Part shown: piece by piece, positions 1 through 13,517 of the stretch
Layout: each line of letters starts with the position of its first letter
Position numbering within the stretch: position 1 is the stretch's first letter
Assembly (NCBI GenBank): GCA_021787665.1
Contig: JAJYLN010000015.1
Coordinates: 1 to 59,722 of the forward strand
Source of the DNA: a bacterium
Lineage (GTDB): Bacteria > JAMCPX01
DNA: 59,722 nt
Direction of reading: 5' to 3'
Translations under genes and position numbers: made by a program
Notes under the pieces: generated by a model
What the model was told of the DNA's origin: nothing
The model's database searches: none
Seen by the model: only the letters and a program-made list of their open reading frames with translations

Positions 1-1
1 G

Positions 2-145
2 CATGTGGAAGTCTTACAGATACGGGACGCAAGTATAGAAATCGTTTACAAGGGGCACGTGGTCGCTCGGTTTAGCTCTGATGCCGTGGCACGCATGATG
101 AACGCTACCTTAAGAGAGCATTCTCAATTAAAAATGGCTGTATGA
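2..145 (+). pseudogene. C-terminal end of an insertion-sequence transposase (cut by the window edge)
   Basis: An open frame runs from the first bases to a TGA at 143-145 and gives 47 residues ending in LKMAV. The gene enters from outside the window, so its start cannot be judged. It is taken as a transposase tail because, 11 bases after the stop, two near-identical 18-bp units (157-174 and 181-198) follow, as expected at the terminus of ISNCY-like elements whose ends read TGACAT. The family is inferred from that arrangement rather than from a catalytic motif. Beyond the end lies a broken antitoxin gene, so the element probably landed in or beside it. Confidence 0.45.
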
Positions 146-156
146 TGAATAGCCTT

Positions 157-198
157 ACTGACATTTTCACGTGGTAATTAACTGACATATTGACGTGG
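157..198. repeat. Two tandem 18-bp units, probable insertion-sequence terminus
   Basis: Positions 157-174 and 181-198 read ACTGACAT, then TTTC or ATTG, then ACGTGG. They match at 16 of 18 positions and are spaced 24 bp apart. Multiple short repeats just after a transposase stop are typical of transposase-binding sites at an IS end. The second copy overlaps the 3' end of the antitoxin remnant on the other strand, so the IS/host boundary is near 198. Confidence 0.5.
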
Positions 199-582
199 CT
201 TTAACACCCTTATGGTGCCCTCTACTCTATCAGCCCGGTTATCTTCTCCATGAGAAATCCAATATTGTTCTTTGCAGACCGATGGACTCATAGTACATCT
301 GCCGTACCTGCGTGTATATCCATAATATGACAATGCTGTCGTTAAAGAGATATAGGAGGGAACCTGAATTATATTCGCTATCTTGAACTTGTCTTCCGTG
401 CTTAAACCGTACCATCTTTCTTTAAGAACATACAGGTCCCTTTTCAATCTTACCCTATAGCCTCCCTTGACATAGCGGGTTGCTGTTACCTTTGCAGACG
501 CTGTACTTATATCGAGTACCTTACTGATGTCCCGGAAGGAGAAATATAATTTATTTATCCTTTTCAATTTCAGATAGTTCAT
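178..582 (-). pseudogene. AbiEi-type antitoxin (type IV toxin-antitoxin), frameshifted remnant
   Basis: The ATG at 580-582 opens a frame with the typical N-terminal wing of AbiEi-like antitoxins: an RDISKVLDIS helix, a KGGYRVRLKRDLYVL strand region and the family signature PSYISLTTALSYYGYT. After that signature the frame degenerates. The continuation expected of the family (TQVRQMYYES, GLQRT) is readable in a neighbouring frame before it meets a stop, so a frameshift lies near 300-310. The C-terminal half is gone, replaced by sequence running into the insertion-sequence end. No AbiEii toxin follows. Codon use is AT-rich compared with nearby genes, which fits acquisition by transfer. The antitoxin half would have been a DNA-binding repressor of its own operon. 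Confidence 0.6.
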
Positions 583-678
583 CTTGTTAAGAAACAGCAC
601 ATTAACATTTATGTTAATGTACTTATACGTAACATATTCACGGAAGTTAATAAATAATGGAGAAGGATGAAAGTAAAA

Positions 679-750
679 AGGGGCGTGGCGATACCACACC
701 CCGTAACATTTAGGCTTCAATAGTAGGGGCGAGGTTACCTTGCCCCTACT
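679..750. repeat. Two hairpins downstream of the first propeller lipoprotein
   Basis: An inverted repeat at 722-750 pairs AGTAGGGGC with GCCCCTACT around an AGGT/ACCT inner stem. A second, GGGG-GTGG paired with CCAC-CCCC, lies at 679-701. Neither is followed by a T-run, so they look like REP-type intergenic hairpins or 3' mRNA stabilisers rather than intrinsic terminators. Confidence 0.45.
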
Positions 751-754
751 TATC

Positions 755-2584
755 AACCCCCTACGGCGCGATCTCCCACATCCTCGAAGTCGTACTGCCT
801 CCTTCGACTGTGTAGATAAGCTGCGACGGCGGTATCGCAATGCCGTTGGGCCCCACCATGGGGCTCGTTGCTGCCGGTACGAGGACTGTTACATGTCCTT
901 GCGGATCTACACGGATCAGAGAGTGGTCGCCGTAATTCGGAACATAGAAGTTCCCATACATGTCGAAACCTATGCCTTCGGGACCGTTAGATGCAATCCC
1001 GGCCGAGGACGGTACATATACGCTTACCGGGCCGCCGGTGGAGGCATTCACGATATCGACTGTGCCCTTGCTATAGTCGCTTATATAGATGTTCCCATTG
1101 TGATACGCTATTTGATAACAATCCGTTCCTGTTGCAAAGGTCTGGTTAAGTGTCGTGCCATTCCACTTGGCGATGGTCCCGCAGTTGTTTATGAACAGGT
1201 TACCGCTGTTGTCGTAGGCAAGGCCGGAGGCACCTGAGTTAAAGGTACCCGATGGGAACACCGTGCTCGTAACACCCGTCGAAGAAACATTGATCACCCC
1301 GCCTGCCCATGAGCCCACGGTAATGTTCCCTGTAGGGTTCGCTATGACCGAGGCACCCTGACCCACAATCTGTGCAAGTACCTTCATGGCCCCGTCGGGC
1401 CTTATCTCCAATATAGCATCGCCATAGACCAAAGAATTGAACCAGCCGTTTACCGCATAGATGTCTCCGTTGGCATACCCCGTATCGTACGGGTCTGCGA
1501 ACCCCGCCGCATACGTATTGACATTGCAGGCGCTGTTGACATGGTACACTAGCCCGTCGTTTGGCTCTCCGACGAACATGCCGTTCGAGCCGTCTGATAC
1601 GATAGAAGATGCCCTATGAGAAGCGCTTTCCCATGGGAATGTTGCACAGGCAATCTGGCTGGCAGTCCCGCCGCTCAATCCTGCGGTATACAAGAGGGGA
1701 CTTGCTGCTCTCGTCACCAGCATGGACGTACCGGATATACCTATACCATAGGGCCCGGTTATGCCGGTAACATAGCCATTGGTGACCGTGCCGTTGGTGC
1801 CTACTACGACAATCTTTGACACGGTGTTGTTTGTTTGACATGCGACATAAAGGTTCCCGCCTGCGTCTGACGTAATGCCGTACGGTGCCGATGGTAGGGC
1901 AACGTTGAGCGTCAGAATGACCGCATTTAACGTCGTGGTGCTGATCTGCGTGATGGCGCTTGAGCCGCTGTCCGCCACATACAGGTACCCGTTCGAATAG
2001 GTCACCCCGATAGGGCTTTTGAGCAAGTTATTGCCGGGACCGAGTACATACCATGTTTCGCTTGTACTCGGGTTGATGCCGACAAGGGTATTGTTGTAGC
2101 TGTCTGTTACTATGAGGTTTCCATTATTGTCCATGGTGATGCCTGCGGGATTTGCAAGCGTGCAGGTCGCACATGACGCGGTTGCCGGAACGAGCTTCGT
2201 CGTCCAGCCCGTCGCGTTGTCCACCGAGAATACGCCCGCGTTATCTGCGATATAGAGTTTGCCGGTAGCGCTGTCGTATACCTCGCCCTGCGGCCCGGTC
2301 AGGGACGCTGCCGGGAACTGTACGATGTAGCCGGAAGGTACGATCCATTCATTGACGTTATTGCTCATCTGTGCATTTATAAGGACCGCCACGTTCGCCT
2401 GATATGGGGCCTGCACATTGGTGCTGCCGCACCCTGTGACCTCGACCTGCGTCGCACTGTGGCTCACCAGCATGGCAGGAGTACCGTCGCAGTATACCGT
2501 GGGCGTTGTCGTGAAGTTCGAGCCTGAGATCGTTATGACCGTGTTGAACGATGCCATGGTCGGGTCGAGACCGGTGATGACCGG
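755..2584. repeat. Copy 1 of a 1.83-kb tandem duplication
   Basis: This block matches 2873-4702 at a constant offset of 2118 bp. The stretches compared, and the translations in several frames, show no difference. It starts 6 bases beyond the stop codon of the lipoprotein gene and ends at the first mismatch, just upstream of the IPT domain. The two gene starts and leaders outside it are clearly different. Confidence 0.9.
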
Positions 2585-2755
2585 TGCCGGGCTCAGTACG
2601 CCTGAGGTACCTGTCGGCCCTGACGGGCCCGCTGTACCCGTCGTCCCTGCTGCCCCGGCCGGGCCGTTGCTCCCATTTTTTGCGCATCCTGCCACTATCA
2701 GCACGGCAAGCATGCCGACCATCGTTAATCCGAATAATGCTCTTTTTATCTTCAT
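761..2755 (-). CDS. Lipoprotein with collagen-like stretch, IPT/TIG domain and NHL-type propeller (copy 1)
   Basis: This 664-residue protein starts with a lipoprotein signal whose lipobox VAGC puts the acylated Cys at about residue 24. A short Gly-Pro-Ala/Thr collagen-like segment follows (about 28-50), then an IPT/TIG-like Ig domain (about 57-140) and a long series of repeats with the pattern DNNGNL, GYLYVAD, GNLFINN, which is typical of NHL beta-propellers. It should be anchored at the outer membrane or facing the periplasm, with the propeller exposed. No catalytic motif is visible; binding or surface-display roles are guesses. The start is supported by AGGAG 7 bases upstream. The last 600 or so residues equal those of the neighbouring copy, while the signal peptide and linker differ. 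Confidence 0.85.
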   Translation of the reverse strand: MKIKRALFGLTMVGMLAVLIVAGCAKNGSNGPAGAAGTTGTAGPSGPTGTSGVLSPAPVITGLDPTMASFNTVITISGSNFTTTPTVYCDGTPAMLVSHSATQVEVTGCGSTNVQAPYQANVAVLINAQMSNNVNEWIVPSGYIVQFPAASLTGPQGEVYDSATGKLYIADNAGVFSVDNATGWTTKLVPATASCATCTLANPAGITMDNNGNLIVTDSYNNTLVGINPSTSETWYVLGPGNNLLKSPIGVTYSNGYLYVADSGSSAITQISTTTLNAVILTLNVALPSAPYGITSDAGGNLYVACQTNNTVSKIVVVGTNGTVTNGYVTGITGPYGIGISGTSMLVTRAASPLLYTAGLSGGTASQIACATFPWESASHRASSIVSDGSNGMFVGEPNDGLVYHVNSACNVNTYAAGFADPYDTGYANGDIYAVNGWFNSLVYGDAILEIRPDGAMKVLAQIVGQGASVIANPTGNITVGSWAGGVINVSSTGVTSTVFPSGTFNSGASGLAYDNSGNLFINNCGTIAKWNGTTLNQTFATGTDCYQIAYHNGNIYISDYSKGTVDIVNASTGGPVSVYVPSSAGIASNGPEGIGFDMYGNFYVPNYGDHSLIRVDPQGHVTVLVPAATSPMVGPNGIAIPPSQLIYTVEGGSTTSRMWEIAP

Positions 2756-2784
2756 AGCGTCTCCTTTTTACTCTTATTATTTAT

Positions 2785-2806
2785 ATCCCTCTTACATAAG
2801 AGGGAT
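2785..2806. repeat. Perfect 10-bp-stem hairpin in the leader of the first propeller gene
   Basis: ATCCCTCTTA and TAAGAGGGAT are separated by two bases. The hairpin sits 30 bases upstream of the ATG at 2755 and overlaps a candidate -10 box. The stem sequence belongs to the CCTCTTA/TAAGAGG family also seen at 2849-2871 and 11193-11213. Confidence 0.6.
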
Positions 2807-2821
2807 GAAAGGGTGTTACAA
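2793..2821 (-). promoter_or_regulatory. Candidate sigma70-type promoter for the first propeller lipoprotein
   Basis: Read on the minus strand, TTGTAA (2821-2816) and TATGTA (2798-2793) are 17 bases apart and lie upstream of the AGGAG and ATG. The -10 box falls in the centre of the perfect hairpin at 2785-2806. This is sequence likeness only. Confidence 0.35.
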
Positions 2822-2831
2822 TTATTTTGTT

Positions 2832-2871
2832 TCATAACGCCCCCTTCTCCCCCTCTTATCTTAAGAGGGGG
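2832..2871. repeat. Interspersed hairpin repeat (CCCCCTCTTA stem), between the twin lipoprotein genes
   Basis: A 10-bp stem (2849-2858 with 2862-2871, loop of three) is preceded by ATAACGCCCCC. Almost the same 39-40 bp appear in reverse orientation at 11192-11230, differing mainly by a small change between stem and flank. It lies just past the stop of the second lipoprotein gene and has no T-run. Confidence 0.65.
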
Positions 2872-2872
2872 T

Positions 2873-4702
2873 AACCCCCTACGGCGCGATCTCCCACATC
2901 CTCGAAGTCGTACTGCCTCCTTCGACTGTGTAGATAAGCTGCGACGGCGGTATCGCAATGCCGTTGGGCCCCACCATGGGGCTCGTTGCTGCCGGTACGA
3001 GGACTGTTACATGTCCTTGCGGATCTACACGGATCAGAGAGTGGTCGCCGTAATTCGGAACATAGAAGTTCCCATACATGTCGAAACCTATGCCTTCGGG
3101 ACCGTTAGATGCAATCCCGGCCGAGGACGGTACATATACGCTTACCGGGCCGCCGGTGGAGGCATTCACGATATCGACTGTGCCCTTGCTATAGTCGCTT
3201 ATATAGATGTTCCCATTGTGATACGCTATTTGATAACAATCCGTTCCTGTTGCAAAGGTCTGGTTAAGTGTCGTGCCATTCCACTTGGCGATGGTCCCGC
3301 AGTTGTTTATGAACAGGTTACCGCTGTTGTCGTAGGCAAGGCCGGAGGCACCTGAGTTAAAGGTACCCGATGGGAACACCGTGCTCGTAACACCCGTCGA
3401 AGAAACATTGATCACCCCGCCTGCCCATGAGCCCACGGTAATGTTCCCTGTAGGGTTCGCTATGACCGAGGCACCCTGACCCACAATCTGTGCAAGTACC
3501 TTCATGGCCCCGTCGGGCCTTATCTCCAATATAGCATCGCCATAGACCAAAGAATTGAACCAGCCGTTTACCGCATAGATGTCTCCGTTGGCATACCCCG
3601 TATCGTACGGGTCTGCGAACCCCGCCGCATACGTATTGACATTGCAGGCGCTGTTGACATGGTACACTAGCCCGTCGTTTGGCTCTCCGACGAACATGCC
3701 GTTCGAGCCGTCTGATACGATAGAAGATGCCCTATGAGAAGCGCTTTCCCATGGGAATGTTGCACAGGCAATCTGGCTGGCAGTCCCGCCGCTCAATCCT
3801 GCGGTATACAAGAGGGGACTTGCTGCTCTCGTCACCAGCATGGACGTACCGGATATACCTATACCATAGGGCCCGGTTATGCCGGTAACATAGCCATTGG
3901 TGACCGTGCCGTTGGTGCCTACTACGACAATCTTTGACACGGTGTTGTTTGTTTGACATGCGACATAAAGGTTCCCGCCTGCGTCTGACGTAATGCCGTA
4001 CGGTGCCGATGGTAGGGCAACGTTGAGCGTCAGAATGACCGCATTTAACGTCGTGGTGCTGATCTGCGTGATGGCGCTTGAGCCGCTGTCCGCCACATAC
4101 AGGTACCCGTTCGAATAGGTCACCCCGATAGGGCTTTTGAGCAAGTTATTGCCGGGACCGAGTACATACCATGTTTCGCTTGTACTCGGGTTGATGCCGA
4201 CAAGGGTATTGTTGTAGCTGTCTGTTACTATGAGGTTTCCATTATTGTCCATGGTGATGCCTGCGGGATTTGCAAGCGTGCAGGTCGCACATGACGCGGT
4301 TGCCGGAACGAGCTTCGTCGTCCAGCCCGTCGCGTTGTCCACCGAGAATACGCCCGCGTTATCTGCGATATAGAGTTTGCCGGTAGCGCTGTCGTATACC
4401 TCGCCCTGCGGCCCGGTCAGGGACGCTGCCGGGAACTGTACGATGTAGCCGGAAGGTACGATCCATTCATTGACGTTATTGCTCATCTGTGCATTTATAA
4501 GGACCGCCACGTTCGCCTGATATGGGGCCTGCACATTGGTGCTGCCGCACCCTGTGACCTCGACCTGCGTCGCACTGTGGCTCACCAGCATGGCAGGAGT
4601 ACCGTCGCAGTATACCGTGGGCGTTGTCGTGAAGTTCGAGCCTGAGATCGTTATGACCGTGTTGAACGATGCCATGGTCGGGTCGAGACCGGTGATGACC
4701 GG
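2873..4702. repeat. Copy 2 of the 1.83-kb tandem duplication
   Basis: Partner of 755-2584. It covers the IPT and propeller coding region of the second lipoprotein gene and stops at 4703, where the proline/glycine linker sequences begin to differ. Confidence 0.9.
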
Positions 4703-4876
4703 CGCCGGGGTCGTCGGGCCGGTGGCGCCGGTCGGCCCTGACGGGCCCGCTGTACCCGTCGTCCCTGCTGCCCCGGCCGGCCCGGCAGAGCCGTTCTTGC
4801 CAGAGCACCCCGCCATTACAAGCATCGAGAGCACACCTACAATAAATGGTGTGAAAAGCGTCTTTATCTTCATCAA
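2879..4876 (-). CDS. Lipoprotein with collagen-like stretch, IPT/TIG domain and NHL-type propeller (copy 2)
   Basis: This 665-residue twin of the gene at 761-2755 has a different signal peptide (lipobox MAGC, Cys at about 23). The collagen-like linker is similar but carries GATGPTTP in place of GTSGVLSP. From the IPT domain to the last residue (EIAP) the two proteins read the same. AAGGAG precedes the ATG-ATG start. The two genes are separated by 123 bp containing a hairpin repeat and a candidate promoter, so they may be expressed independently. The contrast between a diverged N-terminus and an identical body suggests recent gene conversion. Function is unknown; a surface or periplasmic binding scaffold is the best inference. 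Confidence 0.85.
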   Translation of the reverse strand: MMKIKTLFTPFIVGVLSMLVMAGCSGKNGSAGPAGAAGTTGTAGPSGPTGATGPTTPAPVITGLDPTMASFNTVITISGSNFTTTPTVYCDGTPAMLVSHSATQVEVTGCGSTNVQAPYQANVAVLINAQMSNNVNEWIVPSGYIVQFPAASLTGPQGEVYDSATGKLYIADNAGVFSVDNATGWTTKLVPATASCATCTLANPAGITMDNNGNLIVTDSYNNTLVGINPSTSETWYVLGPGNNLLKSPIGVTYSNGYLYVADSGSSAITQISTTTLNAVILTLNVALPSAPYGITSDAGGNLYVACQTNNTVSKIVVVGTNGTVTNGYVTGITGPYGIGISGTSMLVTRAASPLLYTAGLSGGTASQIACATFPWESASHRASSIVSDGSNGMFVGEPNDGLVYHVNSACNVNTYAAGFADPYDTGYANGDIYAVNGWFNSLVYGDAILEIRPDGAMKVLAQIVGQGASVIANPTGNITVGSWAGGVINVSSTGVTSTVFPSGTFNSGASGLAYDNSGNLFINNCGTIAKWNGTTLNQTFATGTDCYQIAYHNGNIYISDYSKGTVDIVNASTGGPVSVYVPSSAGIASNGPEGIGFDMYGNFYVPNYGDHSLIRVDPQGHVTVLVPAATSPMVGPNGIAIPPSQLIYTVEGGSTTSRMWEIAP

Positions 4877-4897
4877 AGTCTCCTTTTATTCGTAAAT

Positions 4898-4926
4898 TGA
4901 ATATCCCTACCGTTTACAAAAGTCAA
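4898..4926 (-). promoter_or_regulatory. Promoter for the second propeller lipoprotein
   Basis: On the minus strand TTGACT (4926-4921) and TATTCA (4903-4898) are separated by 17 bases. They lie 22 bases upstream of the start codon, with AAGGAG in between. Confidence 0.5.
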
Positions 4927-4945
4927 CAAAAATCGGGTTATGGAG

Positions 4946-4991
4946 GGACAGCGCCTCATTTTTAAAAATAGGGCGCTGTCCTAGTTTTTTT
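4946..4991 (+). terminator. Terminator-like hairpin in the leader of the radical SAM gene
   Basis: GGACAGCGCC (4946-4955) pairs with GGCGCTGTCC (4972-4981) around a TTTTTAAAAA centre, and TTTTTTT follows at 4985-4991. This is a near-ideal intrinsic terminator on the plus strand, yet no plus-strand gene lies upstream and the start codon at 5006 is only 14 bases away. It could be an attenuator-like leader hairpin, or the collapsed inverted ends of a small mobile element. Confidence 0.5.
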
Positions 4992-5005
4992 GCTATAAGG
5001 GTGTC

Positions 5006-6124
5006 ATGAACACTACGGAGAAATTGAAGGTCCTTTCCGGAGACGCACAGTACGACCTTGCGTGCGCGTGCGCTACCGGGAAGGACGAGCACCGGAGGCG
5101 GGGGCCGGAGGGTAGATGGCTCTACCCGGTAACGCTCCCGAACGGCGGCCGCTCCGTGCTCCTGAAGACCCTGCTCTCCAACGCGTGCGCCAACGACTGC
5201 AAGTACTGTCCCCTGAGGTCCGGTACCGACATCAGGCGGTGTACGCTCCAGCCGGAGGAGACGGCCCGCGTGTTCATGGAGCACGTCTCGCAAAAGAAGG
5301 CATTCGGCCTGTTCCTGAGCTCCGGCGTCATCGACACCCCGGACCATACGATGTACAGGATCAACGCCGTCGCACGCATCCTCAGGTACCGGTATCGGTA
5401 CAGGGGCTACATACACCTGAAGGTGATACCGGGTGCCTCGGACGCTGCCGTGGAGGACTCAGTCTCCCTTGCGAGCGCCATATCGTTGAACATAGAGACG
5501 CCCGGGCACGGCCGCTTCCGCGCCCTTTCCGACAGGAAGGACTATATGGACGATATCATCCGGCCGATAAAGCTCATGAGCAAGCTGACGTCCCGGGGCA
5601 GCAGGTTCTCGAGGGTAAAATGCACCACTCAGTTCATCGTCGGCGCCTCCGACGAGAGGGACTCCGAGATCATCGAGTACACCTTCGGGCTGTACGATAG
5701 GCTGGGCTTCCAGAGGGTGTATTTCTCCGCCTACCAGAGGGGGCTCGGGACCGGAGACATACCCGGGGAGCGGAGGTTTGCCCTGGATCCGAACGAGAAC
5801 TTCGTGCGCGAGCACCGGCTGTATCAGGTCGACTTCCTGATCCGGCGGTACGGGTTCCGGTACGGCGACATCGTGCTCGACGATACCGGCAACCTGAAGC
5901 TCGACAAAGACCCGAAAGAGCAGTGGGTCGAGCGGCACCCGGAGTTTTACCCGGTCAGGATCAATACGGCCGACAAGGGGTCGCTCCTGCGGGTACCGGG
6001 ACTGGGGCCGGTTACGGTCGGCTCGATCCTCGGTGCGCGCAGGTCAGGCAGGATTACCAGCCTCGAGGACATCGGACTCAGAGGCAGAAGGCTCGAGAAA
6101 GCACGAAGATATGTAATCTTTTAA
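5006..6124 (+). CDS. Radical SAM protein with C-terminal helix-hairpin-helix (TIGR03916-like, putative DNA modification/repair)
   Basis: This 372-residue protein has the radical SAM cluster ligands Cys61, Cys65 and Cys68 (CANDCKYC), which would bind a 4Fe-4S cluster for SAM cleavage. The barrel contains the expected INAV and NIETPG-like strands. A helix-hairpin-helix region (RVPGLGPVTVGSI and RITSLEDIG, about 325-360) suggests contact with nucleic acid. The arrangement matches the radical SAM family usually encoded beside a uracil-DNA-glycosylase-like protein, but no such partner is present here. Its substrate is unknown. An AAGGG sequence precedes the ATG. The gene stands alone between divergent and convergent lipoprotein genes. 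Confidence 0.8.
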   Translation: MNTTEKLKVLSGDAQYDLACACATGKDEHRRRGPEGRWLYPVTLPNGGRSVLLKTLLSNACANDCKYCPLRSGTDIRRCTLQPEETARVFMEHVSQKKAFGLFLSSGVIDTPDHTMYRINAVARILRYRYRYRGYIHLKVIPGASDAAVEDSVSLASAISLNIETPGHGRFRALSDRKDYMDDIIRPIKLMSKLTSRGSRFSRVKCTTQFIVGASDERDSEIIEYTFGLYDRLGFQRVYFSAYQRGLGTGDIPGERRFALDPNENFVREHRLYQVDFLIRRYGFRYGDIVLDDTGNLKLDKDPKEQWVERHPEFYPVRINTADKGSLLRVPGLGPVTVGSILGARRSGRITSLEDIGLRGRRLEKARRYVIF

Positions 6125-6187
6125 CGCACACCGATCCTGCGTCAGAATGCCTTCCTGAGGAACGTGCTTGGCGCTGAAGGAAACAAG

Positions 6188-6252
6188 AGGGCTGTGGCGT
6201 CCCGGATGTCGTCACCGCCCTGCCTATTCTGAACGAGCTATTGCACAGCCCT
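6188..6252. repeat. 9-bp inverted repeat between convergent genes
   Basis: AGGGCTGTG (6188-6196) is complementary to CACAGCCCT (6244-6252), with a loop of 47 bases between the stops of the radical SAM and lipoprotein genes. There is no T-run, so its role as a terminator is doubtful. Confidence 0.3.
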
Positions 6253-7640
6253 TACAGAGGTATGAAGGTTATCACGTGATTGGCCACGAGATCGAAGCTC
6301 GGCGAGACCTGGTTCGTAGACGGCTCTTTGGGCGCAGCGAGCAGGGCTTTGAGGTCGATTATCGCCATGCACGACTTGGACCCGTCGATCAGCAGCCCCA
6401 TGGGCTTGCCGCCGATGATACTGGTGAACGAGGACAGGCCGTGAGGATCTCCGACATTGTCCCAGTACGACAGGCCCGGGCAGTATGCTGTCGCGGTCGG
6501 GATCTCTGCCGATGTATAGGACGTCACGGAGACGCTCCCGGCCGCAGCCGCGGAGGGCAATTGTACCGCGCCGATGGCGTCGCCGAACTCCTCCTCGAGG
6601 AACATGATGTGGCTCGTGGGCTCGATCACCATGCCGGTGGTAAGCAGATTGCCGGACGAATAGACGCCCCGCAGCGGTACGACCGCGTACGGCGCATCGA
6701 ACGTGCCGGTCGAGTCGTTGAACGTCGCGGCGTTCATGTTGACGATCAACAGGAGCGGTGACCATTCGTGTCCGATGGTAACGAGGCCCGTGGACGGGTC
6801 GACCGAGACCGCGTCCGCCGTGAGCGAGCTCACATTGTCGCTGGTGAGCTCCGGCAGGCCGTTCACCGGGTCCGTGTTCGTGTCCACCATCCTTTTAGAC
6901 CAGCGGTACACCTTGCCCCTGGTCACGTTCACGACCCAGAGATAGTCGTTCGTGGTCTCGTACTCTGGCGATATAATCATGTCGTTGACCGGGTCGTAGC
7001 CGAAGTTCTCGGTGGAGAGGTCGACTGGCGTGGTGGCCGTGGGGTCGGAAAGGAACGATTTGAGGACGTTTCCGGAGAAATTGACGATCCTGTACCCGTC
7101 CCCGGACGAAACGATAAACCCCTTGTCCGTGGTGTCCAGAAGCACGCCGCAGTCGAGGCACCCGCCGCCGCTGAAGCTCGCGGTAACGGTGTTGCCGAGA
7201 TCGTACTCGCTTACCGTTGGAGCGGTACCGCCCGATATATAGCCCGACACGTCGATGATAGCTACCTTGGAGCTGTTGTAGCCGACGCAGATGATCTTGA
7301 GGTCCGCTGCGTCCGCTGCGCAGCTATCCACCTCGAACGAGGTCGTTATGGTGATCGGCGATGCCGTAGTCGACATTCCGTGAAGCCGTCCGACGCTGTA
7401 TGAGGCTGAGGAGAACGAAGTACCCTGCTGCGATATCGGCACGACATTGACGCCCGTTCCGTTAGGAATAAAAGCGATCACGAGGCTTCCTGTGTTTATG
7501 GTGGCAAGACCGCCAGAGGTGGTTGCAGAGGGCGGGGGTGAGACCGTTTGCTTGTTTCCACCACTGCTCCCGCAGCCTGACAATGCGATAACCACGCCCA
7601 CCAGTACCATTGTTATCAAACGAACAATTGACCTTTTCAT
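6252..7640 (-). CDS. Lipoprotein of unknown function, probably beta-propeller-like
   Basis: The product has 462 residues. The ATG at 7640 is chosen because AGGAGG lies 9 bases upstream and a lipoprotein signal follows at once (MKRSIVRL, lipobox ALSGC, Cys at about 22). A Ser/Gly/Pro-rich linker leads to a domain with repeated blocks such as KVAIIDVSGYI, GYRIVNFSG, DYLWVVNVTRGK and PLLLIVNMN, which look like propeller blades. No enzyme motif is visible. A strong promoter lies directly upstream, so it is probably monocistronic. It joins the other exported propeller-type lipoproteins of the window, but I see no close sequence relation to the twin genes. Confidence 0.75.
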   Translation of the reverse strand: MKRSIVRLITMVLVGVVIALSGCGSSGGNKQTVSPPPSATTSGGLATINTGSLVIAFIPNGTGVNVVPISQQGTSFSSASYSVGRLHGMSTTASPITITTSFEVDSCAADAADLKIICVGYNSSKVAIIDVSGYISGGTAPTVSEYDLGNTVTASFSGGGCLDCGVLLDTTDKGFIVSSGDGYRIVNFSGNVLKSFLSDPTATTPVDLSTENFGYDPVNDMIISPEYETTNDYLWVVNVTRGKVYRWSKRMVDTNTDPVNGLPELTSDNVSSLTADAVSVDPSTGLVTIGHEWSPLLLIVNMNAATFNDSTGTFDAPYAVVPLRGVYSSGNLLTTGMVIEPTSHIMFLEEEFGDAIGAVQLPSAAAAGSVSVTSYTSAEIPTATAYCPGLSYWDNVGDPHGLSSFTSIIGGKPMGLLIDGSKSCMAIIDLKALLAAPKEPSTNQVSPSFDLVANHVITFIPL

Positions 7641-7682
7641 GGGGAGTTCCTCCTTTAATTTATAAATTGGAATTATTAGCAT

Positions 7683-7710
7683 AACATAGACTTGTTTTTT
7701 AGTTTGTCAA
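7683..7710 (-). promoter_or_regulatory. Sigma70-type promoter for the lipoprotein gene at 7640
   Basis: On the minus strand a perfect TTGACA (7710-7705) and TATGTT (7688-7683) are separated by 16 bases in an AT-rich leader. The start codon is 42 bases downstream. Confidence 0.65.
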
Positions 7711-7951
7711 GGATTTACAGCCAGTTGTTGACAATTGCATTTTTGCGGTTCATATACCTTTTCTATTTTTCTCAACCCAAGCGATCCAGGACCAGGGAAT
7801 AGCGGGTTGGAAAATGTATGCAGCGGGTCCTCGAGGAGAAAGGATTGGATGATTAGCCGACCGACGCCGGCAGTGACTAACTAAAAACAGCCGCACGGCA
7901 GTGCCTCGGTCATGTTGTTGCGGGGTCGATGATCGTGTGGGCGCCGAGCCA
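7711..7951. other. Intergenic stretch without a recognisable gene
   Basis: It lies between the lipoprotein promoter and the end of the ABC operon. A short GCCG-TG-CGGC hairpin followed by TGTTTTT on the minus strand (about 7882-7898) could be a weak terminator for the ABC operon. Nothing else was recognised. Confidence 0.3.
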
Positions 7952-9085
7952 TTATCCGATCCGCTTCTTGAACCTCGCGGCGCTGAGCAGGAAGAGCGCG
8001 ACCCCGAACGCGGCAAGGGCGAGGGCGTACGGCCACAGCACGGACAGACCCGCACCCTTCATGAAGATGTAGCGGACTATCACGATGAAGTACCTGAGCG
8101 GGATCAGGTAGGTGAAGTACTGGACCGAGACGGGCATGTTGTCTATCGGCGAGAACACGCCGGAGAGCAGGATGATCGGCATGATCAGGAGCATGGATAT
8201 CATCATCGCCTGCTGCTGTGTCTTCGATACGGTCGAGATGAGCAGGCCCAGGCCGAGCGTGGTGAGCAGGAAGAGCGCGGACAGGAGGAACAGGAGCACG
8301 AAGCTGCCGTGGAGCGGTATCCCGAACCAGAACACCGCGACGAGCGTGACGAGCACGATGTCGATGAAGCTTATGATCGCGAAGGGCAGGAGCTTGCCCG
8401 CGATGAGCTCCACCGGCCGTATGGGGGTGACGATGAGCTGCTCGATGGTGCCCCGCTCCTTCTCTTTCACGATGGCCATGGACGTGAGCACGGTGCTGAT
8501 GATCATGAGCACCAGAGCGAACACGCCCGGCACCATGAAGTCCCTGCTCTTCAGGGTGGGGTTGTACCACACCCGCGGCCGGACGTCGAGGGGCACTACC
8601 GGCTTCAGGCCGCTCCTCGAGATCCGCGCGTCCGAGAGCTCCAGCGCCCTGTGGGCGATGATCTGCTCCAGGTACGACCTGACCATCGTCGCATAGATGG
8701 CGTTTGACCCGTCGATCACGGTCTGTACCACGGCCCGCCTGCCCCGGTCGATGTCCCTCTCGAGCCCCTCGGGTATGACGATACCGACCATGTCCGAATT
8801 GTCGTCGATGTCCGCACGCACGGCGGACAGGGAGGACACGCTGTCCCGTATGACGAAGTAGCCGGACGCGGTAAGGTCGCTCAGGATGGCCCTGCTCTGC
8901 ATGCTCCTGTCCAGATCGCACACCACGACAGGCACCGCGGTCACGTCGAGCGTCGCCGCGTACCCGAACAGGGTGAGCTGGATGATCGGGGCCATGAACG
9001 CGATGAACAGCATGCGCCTATCGCGCCTGAGCTGGATGAGCTCCTTGCGCGCTATCGCCTTGACCCGCAATAAAAATATCTTCAA
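7952..9085 (-). CDS. ABC-2 type permease, YbhR-like subunit of a multidrug efflux transporter
   Basis: About 377 residues. The layout is that of ABC-2 exporters: one N-terminal membrane helix (about 20-40), a large periplasmic domain, then five helices towards the C-terminus with the conserved ELIVTPIRPVELI-like cytoplasmic loop. The TTG at 9085 overlaps the TGA of the upstream permease and has GAAGAG 6 bases before it. A GTG at 9115 in the same frame is the alternative and would add ten residues. It should pair with the permease at 9082-10227 to form the membrane channel driven by the two ATPases upstream. Confidence 0.85.
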   Translation of the reverse strand: MKIFLLRVKAIARKELIQLRRDRRMLFIAFMAPIIQLTLFGYAATLDVTAVPVVVCDLDRSMQSRAILSDLTASGYFVIRDSVSSLSAVRADIDDNSDMVGIVIPEGLERDIDRGRRAVVQTVIDGSNAIYATMVRSYLEQIIAHRALELSDARISRSGLKPVVPLDVRPRVWYNPTLKSRDFMVPGVFALVLMIISTVLTSMAIVKEKERGTIEQLIVTPIRPVELIAGKLLPFAIISFIDIVLVTLVAVFWFGIPLHGSFVLLFLLSALFLLTTLGLGLLISTVSKTQQQAMMISMLLIMPIILLSGVFSPIDNMPVSVQYFTYLIPLRYFIVIVRYIFMKGAGLSVLWPYALALAAFGVALFLLSAARFKKRIG

Positions 9086-10227
9086 TCGAGGCTCTTCTTC
9101 GTCCTGAGTATGCACAGGGCGAGCACGATGGCGGAGATCAGGACCATGATCAGGAGCTGGACCCAGAGCACGGATATGCCCATGTCCTTCAGGAAGATGC
9201 CCCTCAGAACGACGAGGAAGTACCTGGCCGGCACCACGTACGAGAATACCCTGAGTGCGAGGGGCATGCTACTGATGGGGTAGATGAACCCGGACAGCAG
9301 GAGCGAGGGCAGCATGGTGCCCACGAATGACATTTGCATCGCCACCTGCTGCGACTTCGTAATGGCGGAGAACAGGAACCCTATGCCCATGGCGCTTACG
9401 AGGAACAGGAAGGTGCTGAAGGTCAGGAGCAGGAGGCTCCCCTTGAGTGGCACGTGGAACACGGAGACCGCTACGAGCGTGACGAGCGCCACCTGCACGA
9501 AGCCTATCGCGATGTACGGCACGAGCTTGCCCACGATGAGCTCCTCCACCCTCACCGGGGACACGATGAGCTGCTCCATGGTCCCCCGCTCGTACTCCCG
9601 TGCCACGCTCTGCGACGTCATGAGCACCCCGAGTATCATGAGTATCGTCGCGATGAGGCCGGGCACGATGAAGTTCTCCGTGCGCAGGGTCTGGTTGTAC
9701 CAGATGCGAAGCCTTTCGGACAGGAGCGGGAAGTTGCGCAGGAGCCCGGAGGCGCCCTGCCGGTCGAGGACGCGCCTCGTGAGGTCCAGGGAGTACCCCT
9801 GTGCAGCGGCAATGAAGTATCCGAGCGCGACGCCGCCGACGTTCGCGTCCGTCCCGTCGATGAGGAGCTGGACGCTCGCGGTCCTGCCGGCGTCGATCTC
9901 CCGGGCGAAGTCCGGCGGGACGATGACCCCGATCTTTATGTCTCCCCTCTCAAGCGCGCGCGTTATGCCCGCCCTGCTGTCCGGAGTGTCTTTGACGACG
10001 AAGTAGGACGAGGCCGTCACCGCGCTCATGAGCTGCCTGCTCTCCTGCGTGCGCGATTGGTCGAAGACGCCCATGGGTATGTGCCTGATATCGAAGCTGA
10101 CCGCGTAGCCGAACAGCAGGAGCTGAATGATGGGGATCATGATGACCGCGGCGAGGCTTATCGGGTCCCGCATGATCTGGATGAGCTCCTTCTTCATGAT
10201 GGGGCCGAGCAGGCTATGCCTTCCCAT
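9082..10227 (-). CDS. ABC-2 type permease, YbhS-like subunit
   Basis: 381 residues, with the same topology as its downstream neighbour: first helix near residues 25-45, a periplasmic domain of about 130 residues, and five C-terminal helices with the motif YERGTMEQLIVSPV before the second helix. GGAGG lies 9 bases upstream of the ATG. It overlaps the ATPase gene by 14 bases and the next permease by 4, which indicates translational coupling. In YbhFSR-type exporters two different permeases form a heterodimer; the substrate here is unknown. Confidence 0.87.
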   Translation of the reverse strand: MGRHSLLGPIMKKELIQIMRDPISLAAVIMIPIIQLLLFGYAVSFDIRHIPMGVFDQSRTQESRQLMSAVTASSYFVVKDTPDSRAGITRALERGDIKIGVIVPPDFAREIDAGRTASVQLLIDGTDANVGGVALGYFIAAAQGYSLDLTRRVLDRQGASGLLRNFPLLSERLRIWYNQTLRTENFIVPGLIATILMILGVLMTSQSVAREYERGTMEQLIVSPVRVEELIVGKLVPYIAIGFVQVALVTLVAVSVFHVPLKGSLLLLTFSTFLFLVSAMGIGFLFSAITKSQQVAMQMSFVGTMLPSLLLSGFIYPISSMPLALRVFSYVVPARYFLVVLRGIFLKDMGISVLWVQLLIMVLISAIVLALCILRTKKSLD

Positions 10228-11173
10228 GATTGGTGTCCTCCTGCCGGATCAGGCTTATGAATATGTCTTCCAGCGACGGCGGGATGGTGTCGATCCTGCG
10301 CACCGCTATGCCGCTTTTGGCCAGTAGTCCGGACACCGCCTTTATCACCGGGCCGGCCTCTCCGGCGGGTGACGGGGTGACGGCGTGGATGAGCCTGCCG
10401 AAGAAGGAGACCTCCTCCATCGTCTCCAGGGTCTTGATGAGCCCGAGCGCCTCCGAGGGGGAGTCCGTGTCGATCTCCACGATCGTCCCATGCATCCGCG
10501 TGCGCTTTATCTCGAGCGGCGTGCCCTCGGCCACGAGCCTGCCGTTATAGACGAAGCCCAGCCTCTTGCAGTTCTCGGCCTCGTCCATGTAGTGGGTCGT
10601 CACGAACATGGTCATGCCTCCCTGCGCGAGGATGTAGATGAGGTCCCAGAACATCCGGCGCGAGTCCGGGTCCACCCCGGCCGTGGGCTCGTCGAGGAAC
10701 AGTATCCTGGGCCCGTGGATCACCGAGCACCCGAGCGCGAGCCTCTGCTTCCACCCCACCGAGAGGGACGAGGTCATGGCACGCCCTCTCCCCTCGAGCC
10801 CCACCAGCCCGAGTATCTCCCGCTTCCTCGCCCTCAGTGTGCTGTCGTCCACGCCGTAGATGTTCCCGAAGAAGTCTATGTTCTCCGAGACCGTGAGGTC
10901 GTTGTAGAGGGAGAACTTCTGGGACATGTAGCCAATGGAGCTCTTCACATCGTCCGGCCGCCGCGCGACGTCGAACCCGGCCACGGTGGCGGAGCCGGAG
11001 CTCGGCATGAGCAGCCCGCACAGCATCTTCACGGTCGTGGTCTTGCCGGCGCCGTTCGGGCCCAGGAACCCGAACACCTCCCCCTTCCCGACGGTGAGCG
11101 TAATACCGTCGACCGCGACGAAGTCGCCGAAGCGCTTCCCGAGGCTTACCGCGTCGATGACCGGCACCGTCAT
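10214..11173 (-). CDS. ABC transporter ATPase (YbhF-like half), with degenerate signature motif
   Basis: 319 residues. Walker A GPNGAGKT is at 38-45, the Q-loop YMSQKFSLY at about 82-90 and Walker B ILFLDEP at 157-163, followed by a D-loop and an H-loop (FVTTHYMDEAE). The signature motif reads SLSVGWKQR (about 136-144) instead of LSGGMKQR, so the Gly pair is replaced by Val-Gly-Trp. The partner ATPase at 11262 has a canonical LSGG. Together they look like the two halves of the fused YbhF ATPase, encoded separately. The C-terminal 90 residues form the DUF4162-type regulatory tail. AGGAG precedes the ATG. Confidence 0.87.
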   Translation of the reverse strand: MTVPVIDAVSLGKRFGDFVAVDGITLTVGKGEVFGFLGPNGAGKTTTVKMLCGLLMPSSGSATVAGFDVARRPDDVKSSIGYMSQKFSLYNDLTVSENIDFFGNIYGVDDSTLRARKREILGLVGLEGRGRAMTSSLSVGWKQRLALGCSVIHGPRILFLDEPTAGVDPDSRRMFWDLIYILAQGGMTMFVTTHYMDEAENCKRLGFVYNGRLVAEGTPLEIKRTRMHGTIVEIDTDSPSEALGLIKTLETMEEVSFFGRLIHAVTPSPAGEAGPVIKAVSGLLAKSGIAVRRIDTIPPSLEDIFISLIRQEDTNHGKA

Positions 11174-11191
11174 GCCCGCTCCTTCTTGATC

Positions 11192-11230
11192 CCCCCTCTT
11201 AAGATAAGAGGGGCATAGGGGGCGTTATGA
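11192..11230. repeat. Interspersed hairpin repeat between the two ABC ATPase genes
   Basis: The stem CCCCTCTTA (11193-11201) pairs with TAAGAGGGG (11205-11213) and is followed by GGGGGCGTTATGA. It is the reverse complement of the element at 2832-2871. It sits inside an otherwise tight operon. Confidence 0.65.
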
Positions 11231-11261
11231 TATGGCCGGTTTTCTGTAATTCCCGAAGATC

Positions 11262-12206
11262 TCATACCTGCTCCTTCTTGATGATGGACACGAAGACGTC
11301 CTCGAGCGTCGCGGGTACGAATCCGGTCCGGTCCACCGGGACGCCGCTGCCGGCGAGTATCCGCCTCACATCGTCCGCGTAGGCTGTGTCCGGCCTGTCC
11401 ACGCGGATGTGGACCCTATCACCGAGTATGTGGACCCTGCTGTAGGCGCCGGTGGTGCCGTCCGGGCCCGGCCGGGCAAGCACCTGTTTTGCGCGCAGGG
11501 GGTCCGACAGCACCACCTCGAGCATCGTGCCCCTGACGAGAGTCCTGATGTGCTGTGGCGTATCGACGACCGGGAGAACGCCGTCGCTCATGAGCGCGAT
11601 CGTCGTGCACCGGTCCGCCTCGTCCATGTACGGCGTCGACAGGAAGATCGTCATGCCCCGGTGCAGGAAGGAGTCGAGAATCTGCCAGAACTCGCGTCTC
11701 GATACCGGATCCACCCCGGTCGTGGGCTCGTCGAGGATGAGCAGCCGCGGCTGATGGATGAGCGTGCAGGCCAGCCCGAGCTTCTGCTTCATGCCCCCGG
11801 AGAGCTTGCCGGCGAGCCTCTTCGTGAAGCGGTCAAGGCCCGTGAACTTCAGGAGGTAATCCCGTTGCCGGGTGAAGTCCTCCCTGCCGACCGAGCGCAG
11901 CTTCGCGAAGAACTCCAGGTTCTCGTCTACGGTGAGCTCCTCGTAAAGGCTGAACCTCTGGGGCATGTACCCGACCATCATGCCGGCATCAGACTTTCGG
12001 GCCACCGCATCCACGCCGAACACCCTTACGGAGCCGCTGTCCGGGGACATGACGCCGGTCAGGAGCCTCATGAGCGTGGTCTTGCCGGCGCCGTCCGGGC
12101 CGATCAGCCCGAAGAGCTCGCCGGTGTCTATACGGAGGTCGACGCCGGCCACCGCGTGCATGTCGCCGAAGGATCTTCTCAGTCCGGAGGTCTCGACCGC
12201 GAGCAT
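11262..12206 (-). CDS. ABC transporter ATPase (YbhF-like half), canonical
   Basis: 314 residues. Walker A GPDGAGKT is at 36-43, the Q-loop MPQRFSLYEEL at about 81-91, the signature LSGGMKQ at 135-141 and Walker B LLILDEP at 155-161, with H-loop FLSTPYMDEAD, where Pro takes the place of the usual His. The C-terminal tail is DUF4162-like. It lies upstream of the second ATPase and two permeases. The adaptor gene that would normally precede it is separated by about 2.2 kb of inserted material. An AGGAT sequence lies 6 bases before the ATG. Confidence 0.87.
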   Translation of the reverse strand: MLAVETSGLRRSFGDMHAVAGVDLRIDTGELFGLIGPDGAGKTTLMRLLTGVMSPDSGSVRVFGVDAVARKSDAGMMVGYMPQRFSLYEELTVDENLEFFAKLRSVGREDFTRQRDYLLKFTGLDRFTKRLAGKLSGGMKQKLGLACTLIHQPRLLILDEPTTGVDPVSRREFWQILDSFLHRGMTIFLSTPYMDEADRCTTIALMSDGVLPVVDTPQHIRTLVRGTMLEVVLSDPLRAKQVLARPGPDGTTGAYSRVHILGDRVHIRVDRPDTAYADDVRRILAGSGVPVDRTGFVPATLEDVFVSIIKKEQV

Positions 12207-12675: not shown

Positions 12676-13517
12676 ACATAGAGGAGACCCTACTTGTATA
12701 GACATATGTTATGCCGCATATTTCGTTGTTTCCCTGTTAAACAATGCGCGAATCTTTTCTGGATTTTTAGCAAGGCTACGTAAAACACCGATGGTCGTGG
12801 ACTTCATTTCACGAAAACTGAACTGTCCAGCATGCCCACGATTGCCAGACTTCACTGCACGACGCATATGCAATCGGTATCGTGCCCCCGTAGCCGTGAT
12901 GACGGGTGTCTTCCCTTTGCGTCCCCAAGTAGTTCCCGCATGATAATCGCTCCTTATACCAGATTCGTCACCAAACCATATTTCTGCTCTTTCCTGACGC
13001 GCTTCTTGTTCTATCTCGGGATATTCTTCATGGAGCCAGCGCTGAACCAGTTCAGGGTCCTGCTGATAGGCTCGCCACCATGGCTCTTGTGGCGTTATTC
13101 CCAGTTGGGCCAGCTGCCGCCTTACTGAGTTTACGCTCAATTTGATCCCGTATCTCCGATGTATCAGAACGGCAAGTGCACTTCGTGTCCCTAGGGCAAA
13201 GGGAAACGTATACTGTCGAGGTTCTCCCTGCGTTACTACCCTGTATACCCAAGCTATCATCCGTCCCGTCAGCCTGTGGAGACGCCCCCCTCGCTTCTTT
13301 GCACCAAGCGCATCCCAGCCACCACTACGGTACAGTGCAAGCCAATTATAACTACACGCCCGACAAAAACCCATTGCCTTACTTACCTGCTCCGGACTTT
13401 GCCCGCTTTGTACCTGCGCTACTGCACACTTTCTCATCCCGGTTACAACAGCATGCTTTAATCGCCTTCCATCAACTTTCTTCATGCCTATAATACCAGT
13501 ACATCCTTTAACTATGT
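12676..13517 (-). mobile_element. IS630-type insertion sequence, internally deleted (about 0.84 kb)
   Basis: Imperfect inverted ends can be aligned: ACATAG-AGGA-TACTTGTATAG on the left (from about 12676) against ACATAG-AGGA-TACTGGTATTATAG on the right (from about 13517, reversed). Between them lies one transposase gene lacking its catalytic middle. The element truncates hsdM on its right side. Exact ends are uncertain by some 10-25 bases, and I could not identify a clear TA duplication. Confidence 0.55.
12709..13485 (-). pseudogene. IS630-family transposase with internal deletion
   Basis: The 258-residue frame begins with the helix-turn-helix region typical of IS630 (SPEQVSKAMGF, RSGGWDALGAKKRGGR), continues through the winged-helix linker and reaches the first catalytic Asp in IWFGDESGIRSDY. 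It then jumps from ARYRLHM straight to the C-terminal region SFREMKSTTIGVLRSL ending KYAA. The block that should carry the second Asp (DGHPxH) and the Glu (PPYSPxLNPxE) is absent, some 80-90 residues short of the usual 340 or so. The reading frame is preserved, but the product cannot be an active DDE enzyme. Confidence 0.75.

Follow-up and report, generated by a model that had tools for sequence, protein, structure and literature searches.

Tandem NHL-propeller lipoprotein genes with identical bodies and distinct 5' ends: a probable case of partial-gene concerted evolution

Near one end of the 59,722-bp contig analyzed here (the window), two adjacent genes on the same strand encode lipoproteins whose bodies are identical letter for letter while their 5' ends have diverged. 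These genes are probably ancient tandem NHL-propeller paralogues in concerted evolution, whose duplication would be older than the divergence between two or more genera, with the bodies homogenized later. The genome of the window, referred to as G000, is a draft of 35 contigs that is 92.7% complete.

The downstream member of the pair, copy A (761-2755, minus strand), is a 664-aa lipoprotein ORF with Pfam matches to NHL (E 1.3e-17) and SGL and a weak match to Collagen. Its signal peptide, which ends in LIVAG-C, is followed by a collagen-like Gly-X-Y linker, an IPT-like domain, and an NHL/SMP-30-like beta-propeller. The upstream member, copy B (2879-4873, minus strand), is likewise a 664-aa lipoprotein and has the same plan, as judged from its ORF and Pfam matches, with a signal peptide ending in LVMAG-C. 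The initial annotation had located the pair correctly, and the natural start of copy B is the ATG at 4873, which the TTG at 4876 merely precedes. It had also proposed a shared body of about 1830 bp, and this was confirmed by base-by-base alignment at an offset of 2118, which gave 0 mismatches in the 1830 bp of 755-2584 and 2873-4702 (both on the minus strand). The identical tract begins 6 bp beyond the stop codon (GGGGTT), spans the propeller and the IPT-like domain, and reaches into the linker, where its boundary at 2584/4702 is sharp. Upstream of this boundary, 28 bp of linker containing 12 mismatches are followed by a second identical block of 50 bp (2613-2662 in copy A and 4731-4780 in copy B, minus strand), which lies in the collagen-like linker and was absent from the initial annotation, and then by divergence through the signal peptide. 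The 5' ends had been described as strongly different, and the signal-peptide DNAs of copy A (2663-2755) and copy B (4781-4873), both on the minus strand, are indeed diverged, with 61% identity and agreement in 19 of 31 residues, but they are still homologous and not unrelated sequences. The identical tract contains about 448 synonymous sites and gives a dS of 0, whereas dS is about 0.67 in the first 186 coding columns. Beyond the 3' end of the tract the flanks of the two copies are unrelated, as expected if the tandem duplication junction sits there. No further close copy was found by a protein search of the 2.25-Mb G000 assembly.

Close relatives of the gene occur in four of the nine genomes that made up the search set for the whole phylum, and none were found beyond these four carriers when the order, class, and phylum were searched. 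G008, which belongs to the same genus as G000, has one full copy (JAMCVD010000024.1), as does G007, from another genus. G002, from a third genus, has a same-strand tandem pair (JAJYLM010000003.1), of which the upstream member, G002a, is cut by the contig end and the downstream member, G002b, is complete. The genomes of G008 and G002 are metagenome-assembled. Two fragments were also observed. A 5' fragment on another G002 contig, G002x (G002:C119:2-574), was considered as the missing start of G002a and rejected because of 6 mismatches in a 111-nt overlap; it is either a strain variant of G002a or a further, third copy. A lone remnant in G008, apart from the full copy of that genome, comprises the last 32 codons of a propeller gene among unrelated neighbors (G008:C89:12028-12123). 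Flank synteny was not conserved among the relatives, either around the propeller genes or around the neighboring radical-SAM gene, so that the pairs gain no support as positional orthologues, a point against our explanation.

Copies A and B are more alike than either is to its orthologues, synonymous sites included: the dS of the body is 0 between them and 1.2-2.1 between copy A and the relatives. The leaders follow a different pattern. In the first 102 alignment columns, copy A is closest to G002b, with 75% identity as against 61% to copy B, and each of these two genes lies downstream of its partner in a tandem arrangement on one strand. The grouping of the copy A leader with G002b, which suggests that the duplication is older than the homogenized tract, received FastTree bootstrap values of 90% in the nucleotide tree and 62% in the amino-acid tree, the latter counting against our explanation, as does the length of the leader signal, only about 100 nt. 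The genes of G008, G007, and G002x form a separate leader group and have an MKTKAF leader and a GGAGGT ribosome-binding site in common. The leader of copy B, which is 53-62% identical to all others, has a long branch in the tree and no clean grouping with those of the MKTKAF type. This also weighs against our explanation, along with the occurrence of a tandem pair in only one other genome and the draft or metagenome origin of the assemblies. In the second half of the body, the G000 copies group with G008 at bootstrap values of 50-56% only.

The pair in G002 provides a second mosaic. G002a and G002b differ by 12.1% before alignment column 1221 and by 31.9% after it, so that the first 720 nt or so of the available sequence are homogenized. 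This change-point, located by the maximum chi-squared method, was reached in 0 of 1000 block permutations, and the ratio of the differences before and after it is 0.38, compared with 0.77-1.21 for nine other sequence pairs. The dS between the two genes is 0.38 before the breakpoint and 1.28 after it. Before the breakpoint G002a groups with G002b (100% bootstrap), and after it with G007, from another genus (96%); the counts of the corresponding site patterns are 38:8 on the first side and 24:37 on the second (Fisher P 1e-5). The latter grouping indicates that the divergence of the G002 genes precedes the genera and that their first part was homogenized later. The tracts of G000 and G002 differ in length and age, which points to separate events, and homogenization would appear, from these sequence comparisons, to have acted independently in the two genomes, on the full body in G000 and on part of it in G002. 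The initial annotation had suggested gene conversion that keeps the propeller uniform, or unequal crossing-over between the paralogues. Conversion of this kind, or repeated unequal crossovers with an equivalent outcome, in which the propeller is homogenized and the 5' ends stay distinct, is supported by the G002 pair, with its A-like downstream 5' end and its partial, independent tract.

With regard to mechanism, tandem paralogues on one strand that have long homologous stretches recombine through the general RecA pathway, and such recombination between the two copies has probably overwritten one body with the other in G000 in recent times, in one direction or the other. Gene conversion and two successive or repeated unequal crossovers would lead to the same product, and both fit the pattern. 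The upstream limit of the tract would be set by the divergence of the linker and signal peptide, too great to allow pairing, and the downstream limit by the end of homology at the duplication junction just past the stop codon. In G002 the same process probably took place as a separate event that affected a shorter tract. A single unequal crossover, on the other hand, would yield one gene with the upstream leader; such a collapse could explain why G008 and G007 have one gene each, but a second copy may equally never have existed there. The selective reason for maintaining the pair might be the possession of two promoters or the dosage of one product.

A more elaborate form of this scenario, which we regard as conceivable but rather doubtful, is that concerted evolution is modular and under selection: the two leaders, with expression controlled separately for each, would have been kept distinct over genus-level time, while conversion keeps the exported propeller one product. 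It is the three-hairpin element found between the genes in both genera that is cited for this reading. The initial annotation had the export and anchoring part vary. A varied or selected cassette in this part finds no support in the leaders, both of which, read by eye from the ORFs, are ordinary signal peptides with a lipobox and Cys, followed after cleavage by Ala or Ser (Cys-Ala or Cys-Ser). Because the leaders are of the same class, different anchoring is not indicated.

Another explanation is that the tandem duplication is itself recent and that one copy then gained another 5' end by recombination with a different lipoprotein gene. This would account for the identical bodies and the different 5' ends in one step each, and agrees with the lack of a clear sister of the copy B leader among the relatives. 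We nevertheless judge it unlikely, because the 5' end of copy A resembles that of the same family in G002, at the same downstream tandem position, because the protein search found no close donor leader in the own genome, and because the second half of the G002 pair is older than the genera. An assembly effect, in which repeat resolution or bubble removal would have turned one gene, or two genes of moderate divergence, into two identical bodies, has some grounds in the 35-contig draft, in the position of the repeat 755 bp from a contig end, and in tandem repeats of 1.8 kb that are longer than short reads. A single-copy artefact is, however, improbable, since the 288-bp stretch between the identical tracts has repeat sequence at both ends and so needs two copies, and since the independent genome G002 has the same tandem plan with copies that are distinguishable. 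It is possible that a few SNPs between copies A and B were collapsed by the assembler, yet a divergence as great as the 39% of the 5' ends could hardly have been hidden, and we consider the assembly effect very unlikely as a whole. A switchable pair, as proposed in the initial annotation, or an antigenically varying one, in which silent 5' cassettes are recombined onto a constant propeller, can be set aside almost entirely, since it has in its favor a general resemblance only, namely a constant body with a variable 5' end, whereas both genes are intact with their own Shine-Dalgarno sequences, both leaders represent one functional class, comparison of the relatives revealed one or two (perhaps three) genes each and no cassette bank, no inverted repeats of at least 40 bp were found in 1-8000, and no silent or extra 5' cassettes, invertible repeats, or recombinase were seen at the locus in ORF scans, the repeat scan of 1-8000, and Pfam scans, which reached about 26 kb.

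The spacer between copies B and A (2756-2878, minus strand, 123 bp) consists of a dispersed palindrome (2787-2869) beside the stop codon of copy B, followed by the Shine-Dalgarno sequence of copy A, AAAAAGGAGAC. In its predicted fold the palindrome forms three hairpins (-45.5 kcal/mol, z -5.2). The element has the form CCCTCTTA-n-TAAGAGGG and is often paired at a distance of 57-117 bp, in which case an inverted repeat resembling GGGAGTTAC...GTAACTCCC lies inside. It occurs 1-18 times in 7 of the 10 genomes searched, and a reversed-pattern control gave 0 occurrences. A further site in the window is 11194-11212; another is G002:C52:1583-1670, and many exist in G003, G006, and G008. In G000 as in G002 the element is located in the spacer of the propeller gene pair, but its orientation is opposite in the two, and the spacer elements were thus rejected as orthologues and probably represent separate insertions. 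The scanned neighbors of the pair encode a radical-SAM protein, an ABC-2 transporter, a membrane-fusion protein, and housekeeping functions, and no recombinase was found among them. Adjoining the pair is an ORF for a 476-aa lipoprotein-like protein without a Pfam match (6252-7682). An ABC transporter cluster (7952-12206) contains diverged internal duplications of its own, with two ABC-2 permeases (66% over 549 nt) and two ATPases (67-72%). An ORF with winged-helix and partial DDE_3 matches (12709-13485), 8 kb from the pair, corresponds to an IS630-like transposase that is apparently incomplete.

The encoded protein is an undescribed, surface-type NHL-propeller lipoprotein. The NHL repeats score 63.3 bits against a Pfam cut-off of 20, and the NHL/SMP-30-like propeller repeats in general pass the Pfam cut-offs, while the Gly-X-Y linker is a weak Collagen match and the IPT-like region was read by eye, Pfam TIG giving no score. 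The scores for streptogramin B lyase (Vgb) fall below those required for membership (Vgb_lyase, 33.1 bits against 50; NF000022, 17.1 against 600). NHL propeller structures match by profile with E values of 1e-13 to 1e-19 at profile positions of about 196-350, and an AlphaFold model based on six sequences, of low to moderate confidence (pLDDT 65), matches only generic multi-blade propellers in the PDB. Between genera, the body shows a dN of about 0.12-0.27 and a dS of about 0.8-2, values that, as sequence comparisons, indicate purifying selection. The genome encodes two Omp85 proteins, and the host cell is thus probably diderm. In Escherichia coli, lipoproteins without Asp after the lipobox Cys are sent to the outer membrane. 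Asp is absent from this position in both leaders, and by the E. coli rule both lipoproteins would be predicted to reside in the outer membrane.

The concerted evolution of duplicated protein genes is established in prokaryotes, where 26 long-lasting cases, those of tuf and 25 others, have been reported (PMC6053082). As in copies A and B, within-genome paralogues in those cases are closer than orthologues and have identical or nearly identical synonymous sites, which was attributed to gene conversion or unequal crossing-over. That survey was restricted to full-length events, however, and named partial events as future work (PMC6053082), whereas copies A and B are homogenized over part of the gene with the 5' end spared, encode an unstudied lipoprotein, and represent a pattern that recurs in two genomes only. 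Tandem same-strand lipoprotein paralogues also make up the lpl clusters of Staphylococcus aureus (PMC4470592); the likeness drawn here is one of arrangement, and two copies without a link to pathogenicity are found here in place of a cluster. Propeller repeats are shared with other NHL-repeat beta-propellers (PF01436), such as the sensor domain of Mycobacterium PknD (1rwi) and the designed Pizza propellers, but copies A and B are lipoproteins with a collagen-like linker, an IPT-like domain, and about 500 residues of propeller, and have no kinase part. What we describe is probably an instance of gene conversion or concerted evolution, which is already well known as a process, in a protein that is not yet described, and it reveals no new mechanism. 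Its significance is that it illustrates cleanly how concerted evolution can affect part of a gene, in a phylum sampled so sparsely that the search set had nine genomes, the tract being complete in one genus and partial in another, and that genes of this sort mislead both phylogenetic trees and short-read assemblies.
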